Part shown: positions 32,760-60,425 of the stretch, in pieces | How positions within the stretch are numbered: position 1 is the first letter of the stretch | Layout: the number at the start of each line of letters is the position of its first letter | Origin: Citrus sinensis | Lineage: Eukaryota; Streptophyta; Magnoliopsida; Sapindales; Rutaceae | Length of the DNA: 64,000 bases | Reading direction: 5' to 3' | NCBI RefSeq assembly: GCF_022201045.2 | Contig: NC_068562.1 | Span: 310,001-374,000 of the forward strand | Notes under the pieces: generated by a model | What the model was told of the DNA's origin: nothing | The model's database searches: none | What the model saw: the letters and a program-made list of their open reading frames with translations, nothing else | Translations under genes and position numbers: made by a program

Positions 32760-35700
32760 CTAAAAGGCATTCCAATTATCAGAACTTCTCTTTTGAGTAT
32801 TACTCTCTACGGATGTCTTAAATGGCCCAGTTGATCCAAATGGATCTGTATCGTCAAATGCCAGCACCCCAGAACCATTCCTTGGAGTATCTACTGATGT
32901 CTTGGAGTTGGATGGCCCAGTTGTCCCAAACGGATCAGTGTCGTCAAATGACTCAAATGCGGGGAACCCATGACCATGATCAAAGTCTTTAGTGCTACGC
33001 ATGGAATCAAATCTTGCAAGGGAATTCTGCGATTGGAAGAATCCACTATCGCGTGCATTAAAGGAATTGTCACGTGCATTAAAGGAATCAAACCTTGATG
33101 AAAGCCCATAATTTGGATCAGAATCTCTGGTGCTGTGAACAGAATCAAACCTAGAAAGGGAATGGCTTGGGGATTGGAAGAGTCCACCGTCATGCATATT
33201 AAATGAATCAAACCTAGACAAGTTGTCAAATGCATGATCCTCTGACCCTCCACTAAACCTTCGTGGGGAGTTCCCAAAGTTGTAGGCAGGGGTACTTGGA
33301 ACAGAATCAGCAAATATAAATGGACTCTTTCCCTTGTCAAATGAGTAGTCATCTGGCCCAGCACTAAACCTCCGAGGGGAGTTTGTAATACTGTAGGCTG
33401 GGGTGCTTGGAACAGAATCTGCAAAAATAGATGAGCTCTTTCCCGGAAATAAGTTATTACTGTGGAAGAGCTCTGTTTTTATTGGCTTTATATTGAAGTC
33501 ATCAAGACCGAACATAGAGCTGTCAAGATGTTGGTCGTGAGCAGCTTCCTGCATTGAAGAATAAAAAATATATTTAGCCTCTACTTATATTTTATAAATA
33601 TATATCATTTTCAGTAAATCTTTTTCTATGAAACAAGTTCACTGAAATGCTTTCACAAATTTCACAAGAAGCCTGATAGCAACCATCAAACCCCGTCTCA
33701 AAATTCAGTTTTCAAAATGACATCTAAATTGGCTAGACATCAACCATCAATCCCCATCACAAAATTCAGTTTCCAAAAATAACATATAAATTGGCAAGTT
33801 GGAAACAATAAAAGTTTCAACACCCAGAAAAAAGGTTGACAATGCTAAGTTTGAAGCAAGTGAATCTCAGCAATCTTACTCATGATTAAATAAGGAAAAG
33901 AAAGCAAACTGAACTAGGAAGCTGCATAGAAGATAGAGTAAGGTAACCCTACATGCCATCAACATCAACCATCAATACCCGTCACAAGATTCAGTTTCCA
34001 AAAATAACATCTAAATTGGCAAATTGGAAACAATAAAGGTTTCAACACCCAGAAAAAGGTTGACAATACTAGGTTTGAAGCAAGCAAATCTCAGCAATCT
34101 TACTCATGATTAAATAAGGAAAGGAAAGCAAACTGAACCAGTTAAGCTGTATAGATAGAATAACCTAACACTAAATGCCCTCAAAAAAAGGAAAAAAAGT
34201 TCCATCACCTTCTGTTTAGTCAGTGTGAAACCACTCCCCACCCAGAGAGAGAGAAAAAAAAAAAAAGGAAAAAGGGCAAATGGATAAAATCAATTTCAGT
34301 TCCTGTTTCAATTTAAGCCACCATGAAATACTTGCATGCTAAATAGGATTGCTGTTGAAACTTAAATAAAAGGGAAAGACAAATGATCCCGACAACACAA
34401 TGAAAACTGGAGACCACTGCTTTTGTTACCACTCTCCAGCCAAGCACTGTAATTAATTGGCAATGTAGAATAATAATTCTTCACAAACCTTAGAATTATC
34501 AGTGTCAAAGCCCCAAACTGATTCTGCATCATAATGAGTGTCAAATGTTCCCCAGCTAGGTTCATCAAACCCTTTGTTTCCAGAAAATACAGATTCAGGA
34601 CCAACCTCATCACTGAACAAATAATCACCAAAAATCAGTCTAAAGAAAAGTTGAAAAAGAAAAGAAATTAACTTCCACAGCCAAGGCATGTCTGTACAAT
34701 AATTTCAGTCTGCAGATCAGCCTCAAAAGAATGAAAAAGAACATATATTTAAAAGAACAAACACACACAAACCTTTGTGTTTCTTTAGCTTGGGGTGAAC
34801 CATCAGCACCAATGTCTTTCATGATTTGGAAATCTTGGACTTCTTTAGATTGGTTCTCTGTTGCACCACTTCCAGCTGAACTGTTTGGTCGACCTCTTGC
34901 CAAGCCATCTTCATTTTGTTCATGAGCTGGTTCATTCTCAGAAATCTCTTCACCTTTACTTGCATCCTTCTCTTTACTAGCACCCTTTTCTTCTGTTGCA
35001 TCTTTCCCTTCACTTGCATCCTTCTCTGATTTACTATCAATATTTGACGATGAAGCAGTTGCATCATGTTTATTGGAAGACGTTTCATTTTTAACTGACG
35101 AAGATTTTGGTTTTGGAGGAGCTACGACATTTTGCACTTCTAGGGTGAGTTCCTTGACAAACGTGAATCCTGGAAAATGATAAAGTTGATGACTTATCAG
35201 AAACATAACCCGGTTTATGACTTAACACAGAATAAAAGAAAATCTAATTGTATAACCATCAAATCGGTTTCACAGAAAAGTTTCTGAGACGCAATCAAAT
35301 CAATCCCACAGACAATTGTTTGACAAACCTTCATCCTCGAGCTTGTCCCAATCTTCATCCCAATCAGCAGTTCCTTCTTGAATTCCTGGCTGCCAGCCTT
35401 AAGAAGACCATCAAGAAAAGTCAAGAGAAGTTGAAACACAATTTCTACCACACAATAATATCTTTTATTCGGCCTAAAAAATCCATTTTCGAGTACCAAT
35501 CATTGCTATGAATCTTAGAAAAATTTTAATAAGTTGTTCTTATTTTATATCTTCTACTCACTTTGTAGATAACCACAATTTAAGACCTGTACAATACAAT
35601 GATTGCAAAATAGATAATGTGATTATAAGTTTTGCTTACTAATCAACTTCGTTCAAATTAGTAAAAGAAAAAAAATAAATAAATAAACACTGTAAAATTT

Positions 35701-38700: not shown

Positions 38701-41131
38701 CTTTTTCACCAAATGTATGATGGAATTTATTAGGCCTTTTCTTACTTTGGAAGCTTTGCAAAATGGCCTAAAAGAATATCCCTTCAAATCTTATCTTTAC
38801 AATCACAATATAGGAGCACACCCAAAATTAGCTCACTATTAATGCATCTATAAGTTTGACAATAAATGAGCTTATGTCGATCCAACAGATTTAAACCAGT
38901 AAGGGGGAAAAGTTAAGATAATCTCGTGGACTACCTCGTGGGAGCCTCCAACTCAAGAAAAGGTTGTAAGCTTGTTCACCAGTGATTTTTCCGTCTCTAT
39001 CTATGTCTACTTGGACAAACACTTTACTATACTTTTGAACTTCAGAATGAGTCATCTTTGGCCATGGAACATGGGACTGAGAGGAAGTTGAATTAAGAGC
39101 TCCAATAGGAAACCCAGTTGAAGCAGCAGCAGGGGTACTTTTAACTGCAAACTGCTGATTCTGTTTCCCTGCTGATTGACCTTGCTGATACTGACCATCT
39201 ACGGGTGGCTGAGAAAATGCATGCTGTACTGGTTCAACTGGTCCAGCCTTCAGTGAAGGTTTGGGTGCAGGAGATGCTGGAACACTCGCTGTTGAGGTAG
39301 GTACACTACCCGATATAGCTACATCTTGCTTTGGTTGAACTGGAGATGCAGAAAATACATCTCCAAAAAGTGAGTCAGAGGAAAACCCATTTCCTGATAC
39401 GACCAATGATTTGGAATCTGGAGCTTGGGGCTTTGGCGCAGTGGCTGGTGTCTGTGCAGAGGTTCCCGGTGGTCTAGGTTGAACAGAGGGGGCCACACTT
39501 GAAGCTGGCAGGCCAAATCTATCCAGCGTGGAGGAAGCACTAATCCCTCTGTCAGAAACTTGTGAAGTGGTTCCCGTTAAAGGACTGCCTGCCCTTCCAC
39601 CAGAGGTTATTGGTGGTCTAGGTTGAACAGAGGGAGCCAAACTTGAAGCTGGCAGACCAAATCCCTCCTGAGGTAAGGAAGGACTACTCCCTCTGTTAGG
39701 TAGTTGTGTGGTGCTGCCTGCTAAAGGACTAACTGTACTTCCACCAAGCCAATCAGTTGACACGTTTGAAGTTGGAGGACGAGGAGCTGTCATGATACCT
39801 CCACTAGGCATACTTTGACCTGAAAGAACTTGTTGGGGATGCAGTGTAGTACCAGGAAGTACAGCCTGGGGTGTCCTGACAAAGTGATTTGACTGAGACG
39901 GGGGAGACTGCTGGTTTGTACTCGCATTCCCAAGGCCTTGTGGTCCCCTGACACTAACATTTTGAGGTGATGGAGCACTGCTCACCTGTAAAGCAGGTGC
40001 TCCCACCCTAGAATGAGGACTAGGCATAGCCGCAAGGTTTATTTGGGGTGCTGGAATTCTGGCCGAAGCAGGACCATATAATGCTGCCTTCACTATATCA
40101 GGGGTCAATTCTCGCTTACTTTGTGCCACGGTAACAAGTTTAAGAGAATTAAAAAACTCAGCTCGATTAAGAAACCCGGCCTTTCTTTGATCAGCATGTG
40201 ACCATACCTGCATTCAACAAAAGCCACATGTAGACCACCAACTGAGTGACAAACAATTAAGTTGCCAAGATAAGGCACCTCACAAAAGCAAAAAACTAAG
40301 TACAGCCCCAAAGTTAGAAGAAACTCCAAGTAACTAAATCCCTATACACACACACACATGCATTTTTTTATCTTATGCAAGTGCTTCCTATTCTGTTACA
40401 GTGTGACAGCATCAAAAAACTCTAAGATAAACGTTAGCCACCAAACATCTAGAAGCAGATTGTCAACCCCAATCAACTTAACTACAAAGGATTATGCATC
40501 GACATAAAGTTGCTGTGGCAATTGCTACAACAGAAACAACATAGTTTTCCACTTGATTCAATACACTGACAAACTACTAACAACAAATTCCTACACACTT
40601 CCTTAAAATACTTACGACCATTATCTTTACTCACACATAAACTCTTCTGACTGATAAAAGCAACTACAACTATTAATATCTTCAAAATCATCAGATACCA
40701 AATTTTCGGTCAAGTTAAAATCTTTTATCCTCATTCTTTACATCAAATTCAAAATTCACCAAAGATCTTCCTATCAAGTTCAACATTCTTATTATTATAC
40801 CAACCTAAATTTAACTTGAAATGTAAATAACAAAATTTATGACCAGCGCGGGCCCTAATTATGCCAAAAACTGAATCTGACTCATAATCCGTAACAAGTT
40901 TAGCGAATAGATAGCTCAGGGAATACAAGATGATTTAAATTCAAAAACGCCGTCGGACTGGATTGGCGTATGGATAACAACGAATACCTGAGCGAGGACT
41001 TGTTTAGGCAAATTGGAGCCTTGAAAGAAGGCGACGGCTTCAGCTCCACTGATCTGACCGTCACCGTCCAAATCGGCTCTTCTAAAATATGCTTCGAATA
41101 GATCACTGTTGGCCGCAGTTTGCCCCGCCAT
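32760..41131 (-). CDS. EH/PAN1: EH-domain endocytic scaffold (AtEH/Pan1, TPLATE complex type)
   Basis: Plant Eps15/Pan1-like protein; AtEH1 and AtEH2 are subunits of the TPLATE adaptor complex in clathrin-mediated endocytosis and actin-linked autophagy. Thirteen exons on the minus strand: 41131-40988, 40207-38935, 38464-38246, 38142-37937, 37374-37300, 36543-36472, 36385-36287, 36180-36112, 36032-35918, 35397-35329, 35169-34773, 34612-34489, 33548-32760; 1216 aa. EH domain 1 holds the EF-hand loop DLDGDGQISGAEA; EH domain 2 has DIDRDGKITGEQA and DLSDQDNDGMLSLKEF. A Pro/Ser/Gln-rich linker lies between them. A coiled coil follows (VPELEKHLMDQLSKEEQ to about EELVKILNDRCKQYG), then an acidic W-rich patch (DWDEDWDKLEDE). 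The C-terminus has DPF motifs (FDDTDPFG twice) and repeated ADSVPSTPAY/NSPRRFS units, likely adaptor-binding. The donor of intron 4 is ambiguous (see findings). Confidence 0.92.
33682..34183. repeat. Tandem duplication inside an EH-gene intron
   Basis: A segment of about 225 bp (33738-33962) is repeated directly after itself (33963-about 34183) at roughly 90% identity by eye. A shorter related partial copy lies just upstream (about 33682-33737). The whole array lies in the last intron (33549-34488) and is non-coding. Confidence 0.85.
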
Positions 41132-52574: not shown

Positions 52575-55500
52575 ATGGGGACCATCAACCGATTGCCAGA
52601 GGCAGTTCGCAATACGGTGCGTTCTGGGACTGTCTTGTTTGACTTAACAAGGGTTGTTGAGGAGCTCGTTTTTAACAGTGTTGATGCTGGGGCAACAAAG
52701 GTAATAAATTCAAGCCGTTGACATTTTACCAATCTCTGAATTACTTGTGGGTTTGTGAATGTGACTTGCATTTGAAGCAAGTATTGTGTTTTGAAACAGG
52801 GTTTTTGGTGATTCTTTGTTGTTTCAGGTATTTGTTTATGTCGGGGTTTGCAATTGTTATGTGAAAGTAGTGGATGATGGTGAGTAGTTCTGTACTGTTT
52901 TGTTGTTATTCTTTTTTAGTTCAAAGAGTAAAATGTGCATAGGTGGTCTTTGTTTCCGTCTTTATTTGACTCCAATTCATGTGATTTCAGGATCTGGCAT
53001 TTCTAGAGATGGGTTGGTGTTGTTGGGAGAAAGACATGGTAGATAAATTATTTGCTTATTTTGCTTTTTAGGTTTTTATTAGTTGATGCTTATGATTAAG
53101 TGATGGTATTTGAGTGTATTTATAATGTGTTAGCAGCAACGTCAAAGCTAGGCCATTTGGCTGATATGGATGATGCGACTGGCATTGGGACCTTTGGATT
53201 TCGGGGAGAAGCATTGGCTTCTATATCTGATGTCTCGCTGTTGGAGATTATAACTAAAGCCCATGGGAGGCCAAATGGATATCGTAAGGTCATGAAGGTA
53301 CAGATGATAGAATATTATACTTTTAACAAAATATGTATTTTTGCTGCTGTTTATGCAAGTTAAGTTTTTTGACATTCTTTTCAGGGATCCAAGTGTTTGT
53401 ATCTTGGAATTGATGATGAAAGGAAAGATGTGGGTACAACAGGTAAATATCTGTTACCTTGTGACACTGTTAGCATGTGTGGACCAGTTACCCTCTTCCA
53501 GATTTTTTGCTAATCATATTCAGTTTATTTCTTGTTCTAATAAACTAATGGCTTAGCTTCTTTCAGTTGTTTCTCGCGATTTATTTTACAACCAACCAGT
53601 TCGAAGGAAATATATGCAATCCAGGTAGTTATTTTCTTTAGTTCTTTCCGTTCTTAATCCTGCTTCCAATTGTTTACACTTATATGTTGTGCTTGTGATT
53701 TGCGTTATCTCTTTGGAAGCCCCAAGAAGGTCTTGCACTCAGTGAAAAAATGTGTACTCCGAATTGCCCTTGTGCACCCAAAGGTTTCCTTCAAATTTAT
53801 TGACATGGAAAGGTTTTCCCCTGCCGCTATTGTGATATTGTGCTTGATAGTTTTTATATTTGTTTATTGATGATATTCATTCTTTGTATCAGTGAGGATG
53901 AGATTCTTTGCACATGTTCTTCATCTTCTCCTTTGGCACTTTTGATAAGTAGTTTTGGGATTGAGGATTTCAGCTTTCTTGATGAAGTGAATGCTAATGA
54001 TGGTGCATTAGAAATTTCTGGCTACATATCCAGTCCTTATGATAGTATTTCCGTTAAGGTAAAGTTGATTTATAACTGAAAACCTGTATTATTCATCATT
54101 TATTTCTTATGTTATTTCTCTTTTTTATAATAGAATATTTTCCTTTTTGCAGGCCTTCCAATATGTTTGTATCCATGCCTGAATTTATCCCTGGGTGATA
54201 TACAGTTTTTTAGTTTCATTTAAATTTGGGGCTTAAGAGGAATTAGTAGGGGTGGGCATGTCTCAGTTCAGTTTCATTCTGAATCGAACTGAACCTATCA
54301 GTTTTTGCTCTATATATAAAAACGAACCGAACCAAATTGGTTTGGTTTGATTTTTTCCCTTTTTTCCAGTTAATTCCTTTGTATCTTGTGGTTCTTTTGG
54401 TTTTCAACTTTTTGTTTTTAATATGAACCAATTGGTTTTTATTAATTTTTTAACATTCGGTTCGGTTTGGTTTTTTTGTGGGCAACGTTTTTTTTTTTTT
54501 TTTTTTTTTTGCCCACTCCATATCATATTTTTTTGTAGACCTTCATAATGTCAGATATTAATTCAAGGTATGTATGCAAAGGGTCCATCCACAAGTTGTT
54601 GAATCATTTGGCTGCTAGTTTTGATTGTTCGGATTCATGGAAGGCCAATAATGGATTCCTTAAAGGAAAGAGAAGTAAGTCTCAAGCATGTCCAGCTTAC
54701 CTGTTAAATTTACGTTGCCCACATTCTCTCTATGATTTGACCTTTGACCCATTAAAGACACATGTTGTATTCAAGGTAATGAATTTCATGTCTGATCATG
54801 AATTGTGACCTAATTATGTATATTTATTAACATCCTCAAGTGGTTTATTTATTTAGCTTTTTTGGGGCTATTGAGCTCTGTCTGTTCGCTCTTGTTCCAG
54901 GACTGGGAACCTGTACTTGCCTTCATTGAGCGGGCTATCCGTTCTGCATGGATGAAAAAAATAGCGCATGGTATACTCACTCTCATGAAAATTGCTTGCT
55001 ATGGTTGTTGCATTCATATAATGGGTCAAGAAGTGATTCTTAATGACTGAAATTTCCAGGAGTATCCATGAGTTGCACAGCCAATAAATTTGGAAAAGAT
55101 GAAATGTTGAATAAACATAACAACATCATATCTGCTGGAGGTACCTTTCATACTTTTGTACGTCAAAAATCTATCTGTGTCAAGTTCTTCATCCCCTTTA
55201 TATTAGAATTATTTCATTTAATGCGGCATAATATCTTGTGGATGCTAGAGGAATAACTTTTTCATTAGTTAATTTTTCCATTGATTTCTCCAGAAAAACT
55301 TTTTTTTATTCCTCTGTGCTGACATATTAAGTTTTCTTTTTGTTGCTAGATTCTTTTGATGTGGATATGTTAGAGGATGCTGAGCTGCCATTAGAAAGTA
55401 GCAGGTTCCAAAGTCACCAGTCTTCTACTCACCTTCACTCTTCCCCTTTGAAGAATCTTGCCAAACAGCGTGATCATATGTTTCATAAGGAATGTGAAAG

Positions 55501-58500
55501 AATCACATTTCAAGAGTTCCAGAAAGATCCTGTAGAACTTGCAGAAGAAAATACTGAGATGGAATTTTTTTCTCAGCCAAAACACTCTTCCAGTTTGTTG
55601 GATGGTTCATTTGCTGAATGCTTACCCATAGTGCCCCCGAAGATTGACCACCGAGTGTGGACAATAGAAAGTAGCTGGTTCCAAGATCATCAGCCTTCTC
55701 GCCACCTTTTCTCTCCCCCTTTGGAGAATCTTAAAAAAGAGGGAGATCATTTGTTTCGTAAGGAATGTGAAAGAATCACATTTGGAGATGCTGAGAAAGA
55801 TCCGGCAGAGCTTCAAGAGGAAAATACTGAAATGGAGTATGTTCCTCAGCCAAAATATTCTTTTGGGTTGTCGGATGGTTCATTTGCCAAATGCTTGCCC
55901 ATAGTGCCCTGGAAGATTGACCGCCATGCTTGGACAATAGAAAGTAGCAGGTTCCAATATCATCAGTCTTCTCCTCACCTTTACTCTTCTCCTTTGGAGA
56001 ATCTTTCCAAAGAGGGTGATCATTTGTTTCGTGAGGAATGTGAAAGAATCATATTTGGAGAGTTTGAGAAACATACTCCAGAACTTGAAGAGGAAAATTC
56101 TAAGAGGGAACTTGTTTCTCAGCCCAAATACTCATCTAAATTGTTGGATTGTCCGTTTGCTGAATGCTTATCCCCAGTACTCCGGAAGATTGACCTCCAT
56201 GGATGGACATCTGGTAACAGATTTTCATTAAAAGGAAGTTATTTCTTGGAGACTTGCTTTTTGGCTGATGGAAGATCCAGCATTCCAGTGGAGGGTGACC
56301 TTTTGAATTCACAACGGGGGTATGAATACCTTCAAATTGAACCTGGTGTGAGCAATGGAGCGTCAGGTACCGCATCACCTTTAGATAAGGATGAATTTAG
56401 CAATGAATTTGAGGTTAGCAAGGACATCAAAAAGCCTCTTCATCAAAGCTGCTTTTCACAAGGAAGCCCGCCACTTGGTGGGGCTCTGTTTTCTGGCGGC
56501 GAGGAAAGATGTGAATCATCGACTGGGTGCTTCAAGTACAAACGGAAGCGGAAGCGGGTTTGTTATGATAAAAGGATGGATATCCTAGAAGCTGATTTTA
56601 GTAACCAGAGTTTTGATTCATTTTCAAGGACTCCATTGCAGGATGAGGCATCATGCTCTCAGCACCTCCCCAGGCTCACGACAGCTGGGGACATAACAGC
56701 TGGATTTGATCTTATGTCAAGAGCTTCCCTGAACTTATTCCCATCTCATGCAGAGCCTTTTACTAAAGAAACTAACTTCTTATCTGATTCTATTGAACCA
56801 GTGGGGAACTCTATCTCAGATTATAAGGCCTTGAATTCTGTATGGTGCTCTAAAATCTCAGATCCCTTTCCTCAAGGTGCTTCTTGGAATGATGGACATT
56901 TTATCTATAACAATGCACTTGAAGGAAACTCCATATTGGGTGAAGGAACTAGTCGTGGGCAATTGGCAGATACTGAAGAGAATTACAAATTTGATTATGA
57001 CAGTAAATTGAGGAGATCCAACCAAGAAAAGTGCACCACAGCAAGAAGTGGATTACGTTTTGACTATTATGAGAGTTCTAGCGAAGACTTCTGCAAATAT
57101 CTCCAGGAACATGACCCTTGTAATAAATTCTCCCGAGAACATTCTGATGTGCCATTTGATAAGACAGACTGGTTATGCTCTGTCTCGAGCAGTATAGAAT
57201 ATGATAATCCTGAAACCCAAAGGTATAAATTTAGAAATCATAACTGTGAACCAAATCCTATTCATAAAGAATTGTCAAGAAGAAGCCATTCGGCTCCACC
57301 ATTTCACAGGTATAAAAGGAGGTATATCTCCTTAAATTGTTGTTCAGTGGAAGCTGGAAAATCAAATGCTCATACCTTGCATTGTGCCAAAAATTCTCCA
57401 GGTGGTGGTCATGGGATGTATTTTCCCTTTTGAGACTAGGCACTCAAAATGCTAGCTTCACTAATGTCTGTAATTTTTGCAGAGGCTGGTGCATTTAAGC
57501 ATCTCCAACAATCTTCTGGTGTCTGTAATACAAATGTTAAGCCAAGTTCTGAGGAGGAGGATTTCAGGTATGGCCCCAGGTAACACTATTTTATGTCACC
57601 AAAATAAGCGGTTTTGGGGTTGAAGAATGTTACCTTTTGCCTCCTAATTGTGGCTTGATTGCAGACCGGATTTCAAGATTGAGTCAAGTACCATTTTGGA
57701 CTTGGAGGAGACTCATAAAGCTGAAAATTTTAAGTTATCCCTTTGTCCACATGCTCACCTTGCAGCTCAGGCTGAAGGTACTATTATTTCAGGGACCAAA
57801 TGGCGGAATGGTCATCCACAGACTACAGTTGAGTATATTTTAAAATATACTCAAGTACTGATAAATCTTTTATCATTTTAGGTTCACAAGAGTCAATGAT
57901 TTTAATGTTTGTTTTTCAGAATAACAATATATCCTGTGATATTCACAATCAAGATAATATACTCGACATCTCTTCGGGACTCTTACATCTTACTGGAGAA
58001 TTTTTTATTCCTGATTCTATCAATAAAAGTTGCCTTGAAGATGCCAAGGTTCTCCAACAGGTGGATAAGAAATTCATCCCGGTAGTGGCTGGTGGAACAC
58101 TTGCAGTAATTGATCAGGTTCATCCAATATGTCTTCTATTTTTTATTTGTTTTGTCCTAGCATGGAATTTCTGCTTCTCCATTATCATAATAAACACAAT
58201 TAGATATCATACATGTGACAATAAAATTTCGATGAATATGATCTGTTATTTGCCTAGTTCTGGAAACCATAAAATTCTCCCCAAGGGTTCAGGTGGACAT
58301 CTAATCTTTGGTAACAGTGTCTGGCATGTTATGTCTTGTACAATTAAAACACGGACTTTGAAAGAGTTATTGAAAGTAATTGTTACTTATATTTAGAGAT
58401 ACTTGTACACAACCCTCAGCACAAATAAAATTTGTCTTATGCTAGATAGTGGGTTGCCTCTGTGGGTTCATTACTTATAAATTGCTGATTTGCACCGTGA

Positions 58501-60425
58501 ACAATTTTCTATGCTGGCATAGAATATTGTTCATAGTGCACACGCCCGTACCGGAGTTCTATCTTACGCTTGTTAACACATGAATGGATATCTTTGACAA
58601 TGGCTTTTAAAATACAGCATGCTGCAGATGAAAGGATTCGACTGGAAGAACTTCGTCATAAGGTGAGAATTATTGTGCAATTTAAATCTTAAAAATTGAT
58701 GTATTTATTGCGACTCATAACACTAGTTGAATGCTTAGGTGTTATCTGGAGAAGGGAAGTCAGTAGCCTATTTGGATGCTGAACAAGAGCTGGTAAGTTT
58801 TCTTTTGTTTTGATGCTGTTGGGGGTTTAGGCCTGAAATTGTTTGTTATTTTCAGTGATGCCTAAGTTTGATATATCACGACAGGTCCTTCCAGAGATTG
58901 GGTATCAATTACTGCAAAATTTTGCTGAACAGATAAAAGATTGGGGTTGGATCTGCAATATTCATACTCAAGGTTCAAGATCCTTCAACAAGTAATTTCT
59001 CTCTCTATCTAAAACTGCTTTCGTTCGTACAGAATACTACATGAAGGAGCTTGCAATTATTGCTAGCTAGAGATCAGACAACACAATAAACTAAACTCAG
59101 ATCATCATTCTGATCTGAGATGAATTTATATATGTGATGGTTGTTAGAAGATTTCCAACATGCAATTGTTAACCTAATGGCCACTAAGCAGGATTCTGAG
59201 TAGTAGTCTGTTATATATTCATTCCTTCATATAATTCATCAGTTAATTTTAGTGATAGCTTTTTATTAATGTTTACCCACTTTTGCAGGAATTTGAATCT
59301 TCTTCAGCGGCAGATAACTGTTATCACACTTCTCGCGGTAAAGCACTGTCATTTTCTTACTGAGTTATTGGCCAAATGGTTGTTTGGGAGAAATGTATTA
59401 CCTGGTGTGAAGCAGGCTGTCTCTGGTGTGTTTATCTGTTGCTGATATTATCATTTCATGTAAATGGCTTGCAGGTACCCTGCATTTTCGGCGTCAATTT
59501 ATCTGATGTAGACCTTTTAGAATTTCTTCAGCAGGTGATATACGAAGTTTTTCTCTTATTTGAACCATTTCTCTTTTCATTCTTGTTATTCTTTTTTCTT
59601 TATTTAATGTCTTTCTTTCTGTATTTCGCATCCCATTCCTAGCTTGCTGATACGGATGGATCGTCAACAACCCCTCCTTCTGTTCTTCGAGTCCTTAATT
59701 CTAAAGCCTGCAGAGGTATACATGCTTTATCCTGGTTGAAAGATGCCAGTCACGCGGCATGATTAAATGTAACTAAAGCTTAATCTTGTGGGTGAATATT
59801 TTATGTTAGACATAAGAAATATTTGCATTGTTAATGTTCATTCCGCCGCTCCCCCTCCCCCCACTCAACAATATCAAAATGCTTTCTTATGTCTTGATCT
59901 TACTCCTGTGAACTAATGCTTTGTCAGGCACATGTTGGACTCTTTATTTTTCCTTTCTCAAATTCTACAATTTTTCTTTCTTTCAACCTTCTTTTTTGGT
60001 CCCACCCCACAAATTGCGGCAATAACTTGTGTGTGCAAAGAATTTGTTCTTCTAATGCCCTTTTCTTTGTTCTTTGTTATTGGTAATCTTTTGATTGTTA
60101 AGGAGCAATTATGTTTGGAGATTCTTTGCTGCCTTCAGAATGTGCCCTTATTGTTGAAGAGCTAAAGCAGACCTCTCTGTGTTTCCAAGTAAGTTAAATT
60201 TTTAGAGTGTGTTTACCAGAAAGAGGTTTTTGAATGATGCACTCAAGAGATTTTATGCAGTGTGCTCATGGACGACCAACAACGGTACCACTTGTCAACT
60301 TGGAGGCATTACATAAACAGATAGCTCAGCTTAACAATTCAAGTGAGTTGTGGCATGGCTTACATCGTGGAGAAATAAGTCTTAAGCGTGCAAGCCGGCG
60401 TTTATTAACTGGGGTTAGAGGATAG
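52575..60425 (+). CDS. MLH3: DNA mismatch repair / meiotic crossover protein MLH3
   Basis: MutL homologue that pairs with MLH1 (MutL-gamma) to resolve meiotic double Holliday junctions into crossovers. I traced 23 exons: 52575-52700, 52828-52879, 52991-53038, 53134-53297, 53385-53442, 53567-53624, 53720-53812, 53893-54058, 54539-54775, 54901-54970, 55060-55140, 55350-57401, 57483-57567, 57665-57827, 57920-58117, 58618-58662, 58739-58792, 58885-58991, 59289-59337, 59475-59534, 59643-59715, 60103-60188, 60261-60425; 1429 aa. GHKL ATPase motifs are VVEELVFNSVDAGA, VVDDGSG and TFGFRGEALASIS. The endonuclease motif DQHAADERIRLE is intact and split by a 500-bp intron. QCAHGRPTTVP lies near the C-terminus. 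The protein is longer than Arabidopsis MLH3 (roughly 1,150-1,170 aa from memory), partly through an internal triplication in exon 12. Confidence 0.93.
54249..54519. mobile_element. hAT-like MITE in an MLH3 intron
   Basis: The left end ggggtgggca and right end tgcccactcc form a 10-bp terminal inverted repeat with one mismatch. The interior is rich in ggttcggttt and cgaaccgaacc motifs, a pattern common in dicot non-autonomous hAT elements. It is about 270 bp, with no coding sequence. An 8-bp target duplication is not obvious. Confidence 0.5.
55394..56212 (+). repeat. In-frame tandem triplication of a 273-bp unit in MLH3 exon 12
   Basis: Three head-to-tail copies start at 55394, 55667 and 55940, each exactly 273 bp (91 codons) apart. 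Each encodes a unit opening ESS-x-FQ-x-HQ, continuing through SPL-x-NL and H-x-F-x-x-ECERI, and ending KID plus W. The array covers about residues 400-672, in the variable linker between the ATPase and endonuclease domains. Confidence 0.93.

Follow-up and report, generated by a model that had tools for sequence, protein, structure and literature searches.

In-frame tandem triplication of a 273-bp segment in the MLH3 linker of Citrus sinensis

In the MLH3 gene of Citrus sinensis, a 273-bp coding segment stands three times in a row, which raises the question of how the protein came by these copies and whether they have been kept for their sequence, for their length or for their open frame. We analysed the locus within the window, the 64,000-nucleotide stretch of contig NC_068562.1 in which it lies. 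TRF reported a period of 273 and 3.0 copies at 55392-56199 (indels 0%, score 1050), and an independent repeat search of the window found three head-to-tail copies at spacings of 273 and 273 without an indel. Set at 55394-56212, the array consists of three adjoining 273-bp units in a single shared frame, with no in-frame stop or indel; similarity between units starts at about 55389-55392 and fades out at about 56199-56209. The units are identical at 218/273 (units 1 and 2), 221/273 (1 and 3) and 216/273 (2 and 3) DNA positions (79-81%) and, for the same pairs, at 61/91, 57/91 and 58/91 residues (63-67%). Their alignment scores against one another were 283-321, compared with means of 28-35 when a unit was aligned to shuffled sequence from elsewhere in MLH3, a similarity far beyond chance. 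Homologous units that adjoin one another in a single frame make the array a protein tandem repeat. The initial annotation, made from the letters alone, had described exact tandem units that kept frame and period, were not recent and had survived as coding sequence. TRF, the repeat search and the pairwise comparison agree on the first point, copies that differ at 19-21% of DNA sites bear out the second, and a frame that is open through all three units bears out the third.

The MLH3 model was built by hand, with exons joined by eye at GT..AG junctions in continuous phase (Table 1). It places the array in coding exon 13, one further along than the exon 12 first assigned. The product carries an N-terminal GHKL ATPase and transducer domain by Pfam, and a C-terminal MutL_C domain with endonuclease motifs at residues 1215, 1343 and 1375, as expected of MLH3. 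Such MutL_C endonuclease motifs are of the DQHA-x2-E-x4-E, ACR and C-x-HGRPT type. The best PDB matches of the C-terminal part were to yeast MLH3 (6shx, 8.4e-20; 6rmn, 1.3e-19), followed by bacterial MutL (1.9e-6) and yeast PMS1 (4.8e-4), in a comparison confined to PDB entries. The array (residues 399-671) begins 49 residues after the Pfam transducer match, near the N-terminal end of the 845-residue inter-domain stretch between the Pfam matches (350-1194).

Table 1. Features of the MLH3 gene, its repeat array and the other in-frame duplications of the window.
Feature	Position	Strand	Details
MLH3 coding region	52575..60425	+	24 coding exons, 1428 aa, no internal stop; stop codon included
Exon 13 (2052 bp), bulk of linker	55350..57401	+	whole array within this one exon
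Unit 1	55394..55666	+	aa 399-489
Unit 2	55667..55939	+	aa 490-580
Unit 3	55940..56212	+	aa 581-671; final codon unlike units 1-2
HATPase_c_3	aa 25-122		Pfam, 36 bits (cut-off 25)
DNA_mis_repair	aa 221-349		Pfam, 40.9 bits (cut-off 26)
MutL_C	aa 1195-1354		Pfam, 36.2 bits (cut-off 25)
In-frame duplication, 2 copies of 37 codons	33223-33444	-	period 111; 85/108 bases; dN 0.15, dS 0.78
In-frame duplication, 2 copies of 48 codons	39457-39746	-	period 144; 115/144 bases; dN 0.22, dS 0.29

We consider it probable that the array arose through tandem duplication in frame, within a linker that is tolerant and evolves fast, and has been kept mainly for its frame, perhaps also for its length. A 273-bp piece of exon 13 would have been duplicated twice in succession, in tandem and in frame, through replication slippage or unequal exchange, and so have extended the disordered linker between ATPase and endonuclease; given a one-unit ancestor, the gain comes to the 182 residues that had been proposed at the outset. 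The duplications would have been tolerated because 273 is divisible by three and because the linker would depend chiefly on being long, flexible and open in frame rather than on a fixed sequence. The units would then have drifted under weak constraint, roughly for as long as the Citrus/Zanthoxylum split, and the likeliest effect would be a somewhat longer flexible tether in MLH1-MLH3.

The selection analysis bears directly on this reading. A comparison of dN/dS among the units, put forward in the initial annotation as a check, points to weak constraint, and omega = 1 is not rejected by it. The three-branch codon model gave an omega of 0.727 with an interval of approximately 0.43-1.3 (ends interpolated at the 3.84 cut); 2dlnL was 1.27 for omega = 1, 11.2 for omega 0.3 and 24.3 for omega 0.2, and an omega of 0.3 or less is rejected. 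The NG86 values of dN/dS were 0.56 for units 1-2, 0.88 for 1-3 and 0.51 for 2-3, and their bootstrap intervals were broad. Neither the first 40 codons of the unit (omega 1.3, 2dlnL 0.23) nor codons 41-91 (omega 0.59, 2dlnL 2.58) differed from 1, and branch-specific omegas (1.36, 0.43, 0.87) fitted no better (2dlnL 2.4). Differences by codon position had no third-position excess (21/16/18, 24/15/13 and 23/15/19). Across the three units 48/91 residues are invariant, compared with 46.2 ± 3.3 expected from a simulation matched for total changes and with 36-54 (omega 0.7), 26-43 (omega 1.0, fixed dS) and 52-69 (omega 0.4) from codon simulations. The observed count thus lies inside the omega 0.7 range and above that of omega 1.0 at fixed dS. 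Since the omega 1.0 simulation yields too few invariant residues, weak constraint is likely, though at most a diffuse one. The probability of dodging all stops over 79 random changes is ~0.026, a modest sign that the frame has been retained by selection, and the presence of zero in-frame indels at ~20% divergence may mean that the length of the units matters.

By charge-hydropathy, each unit and the remaining linker are negative (disordered side) and both end domains positive (folded side). AlphaFold, run for unit 1 on an alignment only three sequences deep, says little (pLDDT 55, pTM 0.17; two possible short helices at 29-40 and 46-55), and the units are predicted to be disordered, without a confident fold. 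They are acidic (net charge -4, -6 and -6), and therefore unlike the patches of Lys/Arg residues that contact DNA in the linker of yeast Mlh3 and were mutated there, as far as these are described in PMC5448812. The citrus linker resembles the MLH3 linkers treated in PMC12642689, which, going by the accessible parts of that study, are disordered stretches between ATPase and endonuclease, under lower constraint than the domains and of a length that depends on the species. It differs from them in that its extra length can be traced to a tandem repeat of 3 x 91 residues; the selection datasets there come from rodents, birds, primates and yeast, whereas the citrus case is from a plant.

Selection for the lengthening itself, through a longer tether that would alter how MLH1-MLH3 encircles or crosses obstacles on meiotic DNA, appears improbable to us. 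Linker length is of consequence in related systems, where shortened E. coli MutL linkers abolished roadblock bypass (PMC6902014) and yeast Mlh1-Pms1 IDRs that were shortened, scrambled, lengthened or swapped gave mild to severe repair defects (PMC6393296), and all three citrus units are free of indels. However, an addition of 182 residues is modest next to the 845-residue inter-domain stretch, and MLH3 linker length varies widely, from 113 residues in yeast (376-488; PMC8495741) to the 800 quoted in PMC10325900.

An unlikely alternative, on a par with the last, is that the unit carries a short interaction motif, H-x-F-x-x-ECERI or KID-x-x-x-W, whose triplication provides three putative docking sites, like the BRC repeats of BRCA2. 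Those repeats, also a repeated segment in a recombination protein, bind RAD51/DMC1 via a conserved motif. The blocks noticed at the outset as retained in every copy are indeed there: H-x-F-x-x-ECERI (7/10 positions invariant) and KID-x-x-x-W (4/7 positions invariant) each occur in 3/3 units. Weak overall constraint (omega 0.73) still leaves room for a few fixed residues, and a functional short motif, MVRTD, matters in the MLH1 linker according to PMC10325900. Nevertheless, the interpretation of the blocks as an interaction motif in triplicate was not supported: the invariant residues are neither more numerous nor more clustered than weak constraint would give with no special motif. The densest 11-residue stretch, with 8 invariant residues, was reached in 45% of omega 1.0 and 89% of omega 0.7 simulations; the longest invariant run of 5 (ECERI) was equalled or exceeded in 37% (omega 1.0), 78% (omega 0.7) and 82% (matched) of simulations. 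No Pfam match in the array exceeded its cut-off (best LRR_5, 16.9 bits against 27.7), no confident fold was obtained for the unit, MVRTD does not occur in this MLH3, and the genome yielded no further unit among the best candidates scored. The citrus units differ from the BRC repeats in having neither a conserved-motif signal nor a known partner; no selection on the same residues in each unit was detected, a comparison that has limited power with three units. The presence of the blocks makes a triplicated docking motif possible. That a lineage-specific triplication gave three putative docking sites for a meiotic partner and so tunes crossovers, much like BRC-repeat number in BRCA2, is less probable again and strikes us as far-fetched.

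The search for further copies covered the genome of about 300 Mb in 11 contigs. One locus of that genome (L005) encodes 209 residues that agree at 209/209 positions with CSPYL1, the Citrus sinensis receptor (PDB 6zuc), in keeping with a Citrus genome. A protein search to E 10 and a DNA search found no unit beyond the three among the best candidates scored, which makes a transposon origin of the unit unlikely. Within MLH3 itself, local alignments of residues 1-398 and 672-1428 gave no extra degenerate units, being no better than shuffles in 6/6 comparisons (shuffles matched the scores in 23-93%). Neither was a second MLH3 copy usable as an outgroup found among the best candidates scored: 19/21 matches of the MLH3 search fell within this gene, and the other two, both weak, lay on C3 (E 1.5e-5 and 2e-3). 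A MutL_C family search of the genome gave zero matches and was uninformative in that it missed MLH3 itself, presumably because introns cut the domain. An assembly or annotation artefact, or removal of the array from the mRNA by splicing, can practically be dismissed, since artefactual duplicates would be near-identical where these copies differ by 19-21%, making a copy-number error unlikely, and the frame is open through an exon of 2052 bp with splice sites at both ends.

In the preferred reading, in-frame duplication followed by drift, the copies would be old. Summed branch dS under the codon model was about 0.30 (units 1-2), 0.29 (1-3) and 0.33 (2-3), and NG86 dS was 0.37, 0.24 and 0.41 for the same pairs. 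These values of about 0.3 are close to the Citrus-Zanthoxylum Ks of 0.277, placed at 35.3 My (95% interval 18-58) with a rate of 3.92e-9 in PMC8417289. The units would have separated ~37-42 My ago at this rate and ~56-63 My ago at the 2.6e-9 preferred in another Zanthoxylum paper (PMC5711952); the Ks peaks given in the two papers disagree. The accessible text of PMC11920794 and PMC7059373 held no usable Citrus Ks and nothing on the MLH3 linker. We infer an age of roughly 40 My, with 15-65 My, our own estimate of the error, as a fair range given only ~54 synonymous sites per unit pair. Since the three pairs are about equidistant, the distances do not tell which duplication came first. Unit 3 carries 3 private changes within positions 1-120 and 21 in the remaining 153 bp (binomial P 0.0016, post hoc), and this crowding toward the 3' part would fit a second duplication in a shifted register. 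A test for gene conversion among units revealed no long run of agreement (P 0.11 for 1-2, 0.93 for 1-3 and 0.9996 for 2-3).

We also surveyed repeats with a TRF score of 100 or more in 264 kb made up of the window plus 20 sampled pieces of 10 kb, a small set taken from the opening 2.5 Mb of four contigs, with a window chosen for its repeat among them. Among 19 rows with a period of 60 or more, 7 lay in an open frame, all with periods divisible by 3, compared with 1/12 of the remaining rows; the link is partly built in, because a repeat whose period is no multiple of 3 has to stay open in three phases. The 7 rows represent five places, three of them in the window and the others a coiled-coil-like ORF (L011) and a leucine-rich-repeat ORF (L019), both labelled by eye. 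Of the open-frame rows, the MLH3 array had the top TRF score. Both other duplications of the window lie on the minus strand outside MLH3, with about 80% DNA identity, and their ORFs, ~5 kb apart, are probably one gene. The ORF at 39457-39746 has an EH-domain match below threshold and that at 33223-33444 no Pfam match; by its dN and dS, the latter duplication looks more constrained than the MLH3 units. Separately, intron 9 of MLH3 holds a GGTTCGGTTTGG-rich stretch at 54240-54530 with GGGGTGGGCA and TGCCCACTCC close to its ends. Elsewhere in the genome it has six partial matches (70-84% identity) and an exact one of 31 bp; judged on sequence, it resembles an old insertion of the MITE type, and inspection by eye showed no target-site duplication.

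At title and abstract level, the open-access literature on MLH3 with Citrus, Rutaceae or linker duplication gave no account of the triplication. Adjacent similar units in predicted disorder that originate by duplication are a shared feature of the protein tandem repeats of disordered regions in one census (PMC7230257) and of long intragenic repeats in plant coding sequences (PMC11462849), as characterised in the accessible parts of both; the citrus array differs in lying in an MLH3 linker, in having three units only and in having no known fold. In other respects it is ordinary, with two other in-frame duplications in the same window and with protein tandem repeats described as widespread, with an enrichment in disordered regions (PMC7230257).

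Overall, the array would illustrate one concrete route by which the highly variable MLH3 linkers grow, the in-frame tandem duplication of whole segments, and it may serve as a natural test of linker length versus sequence in plant crossover formation.
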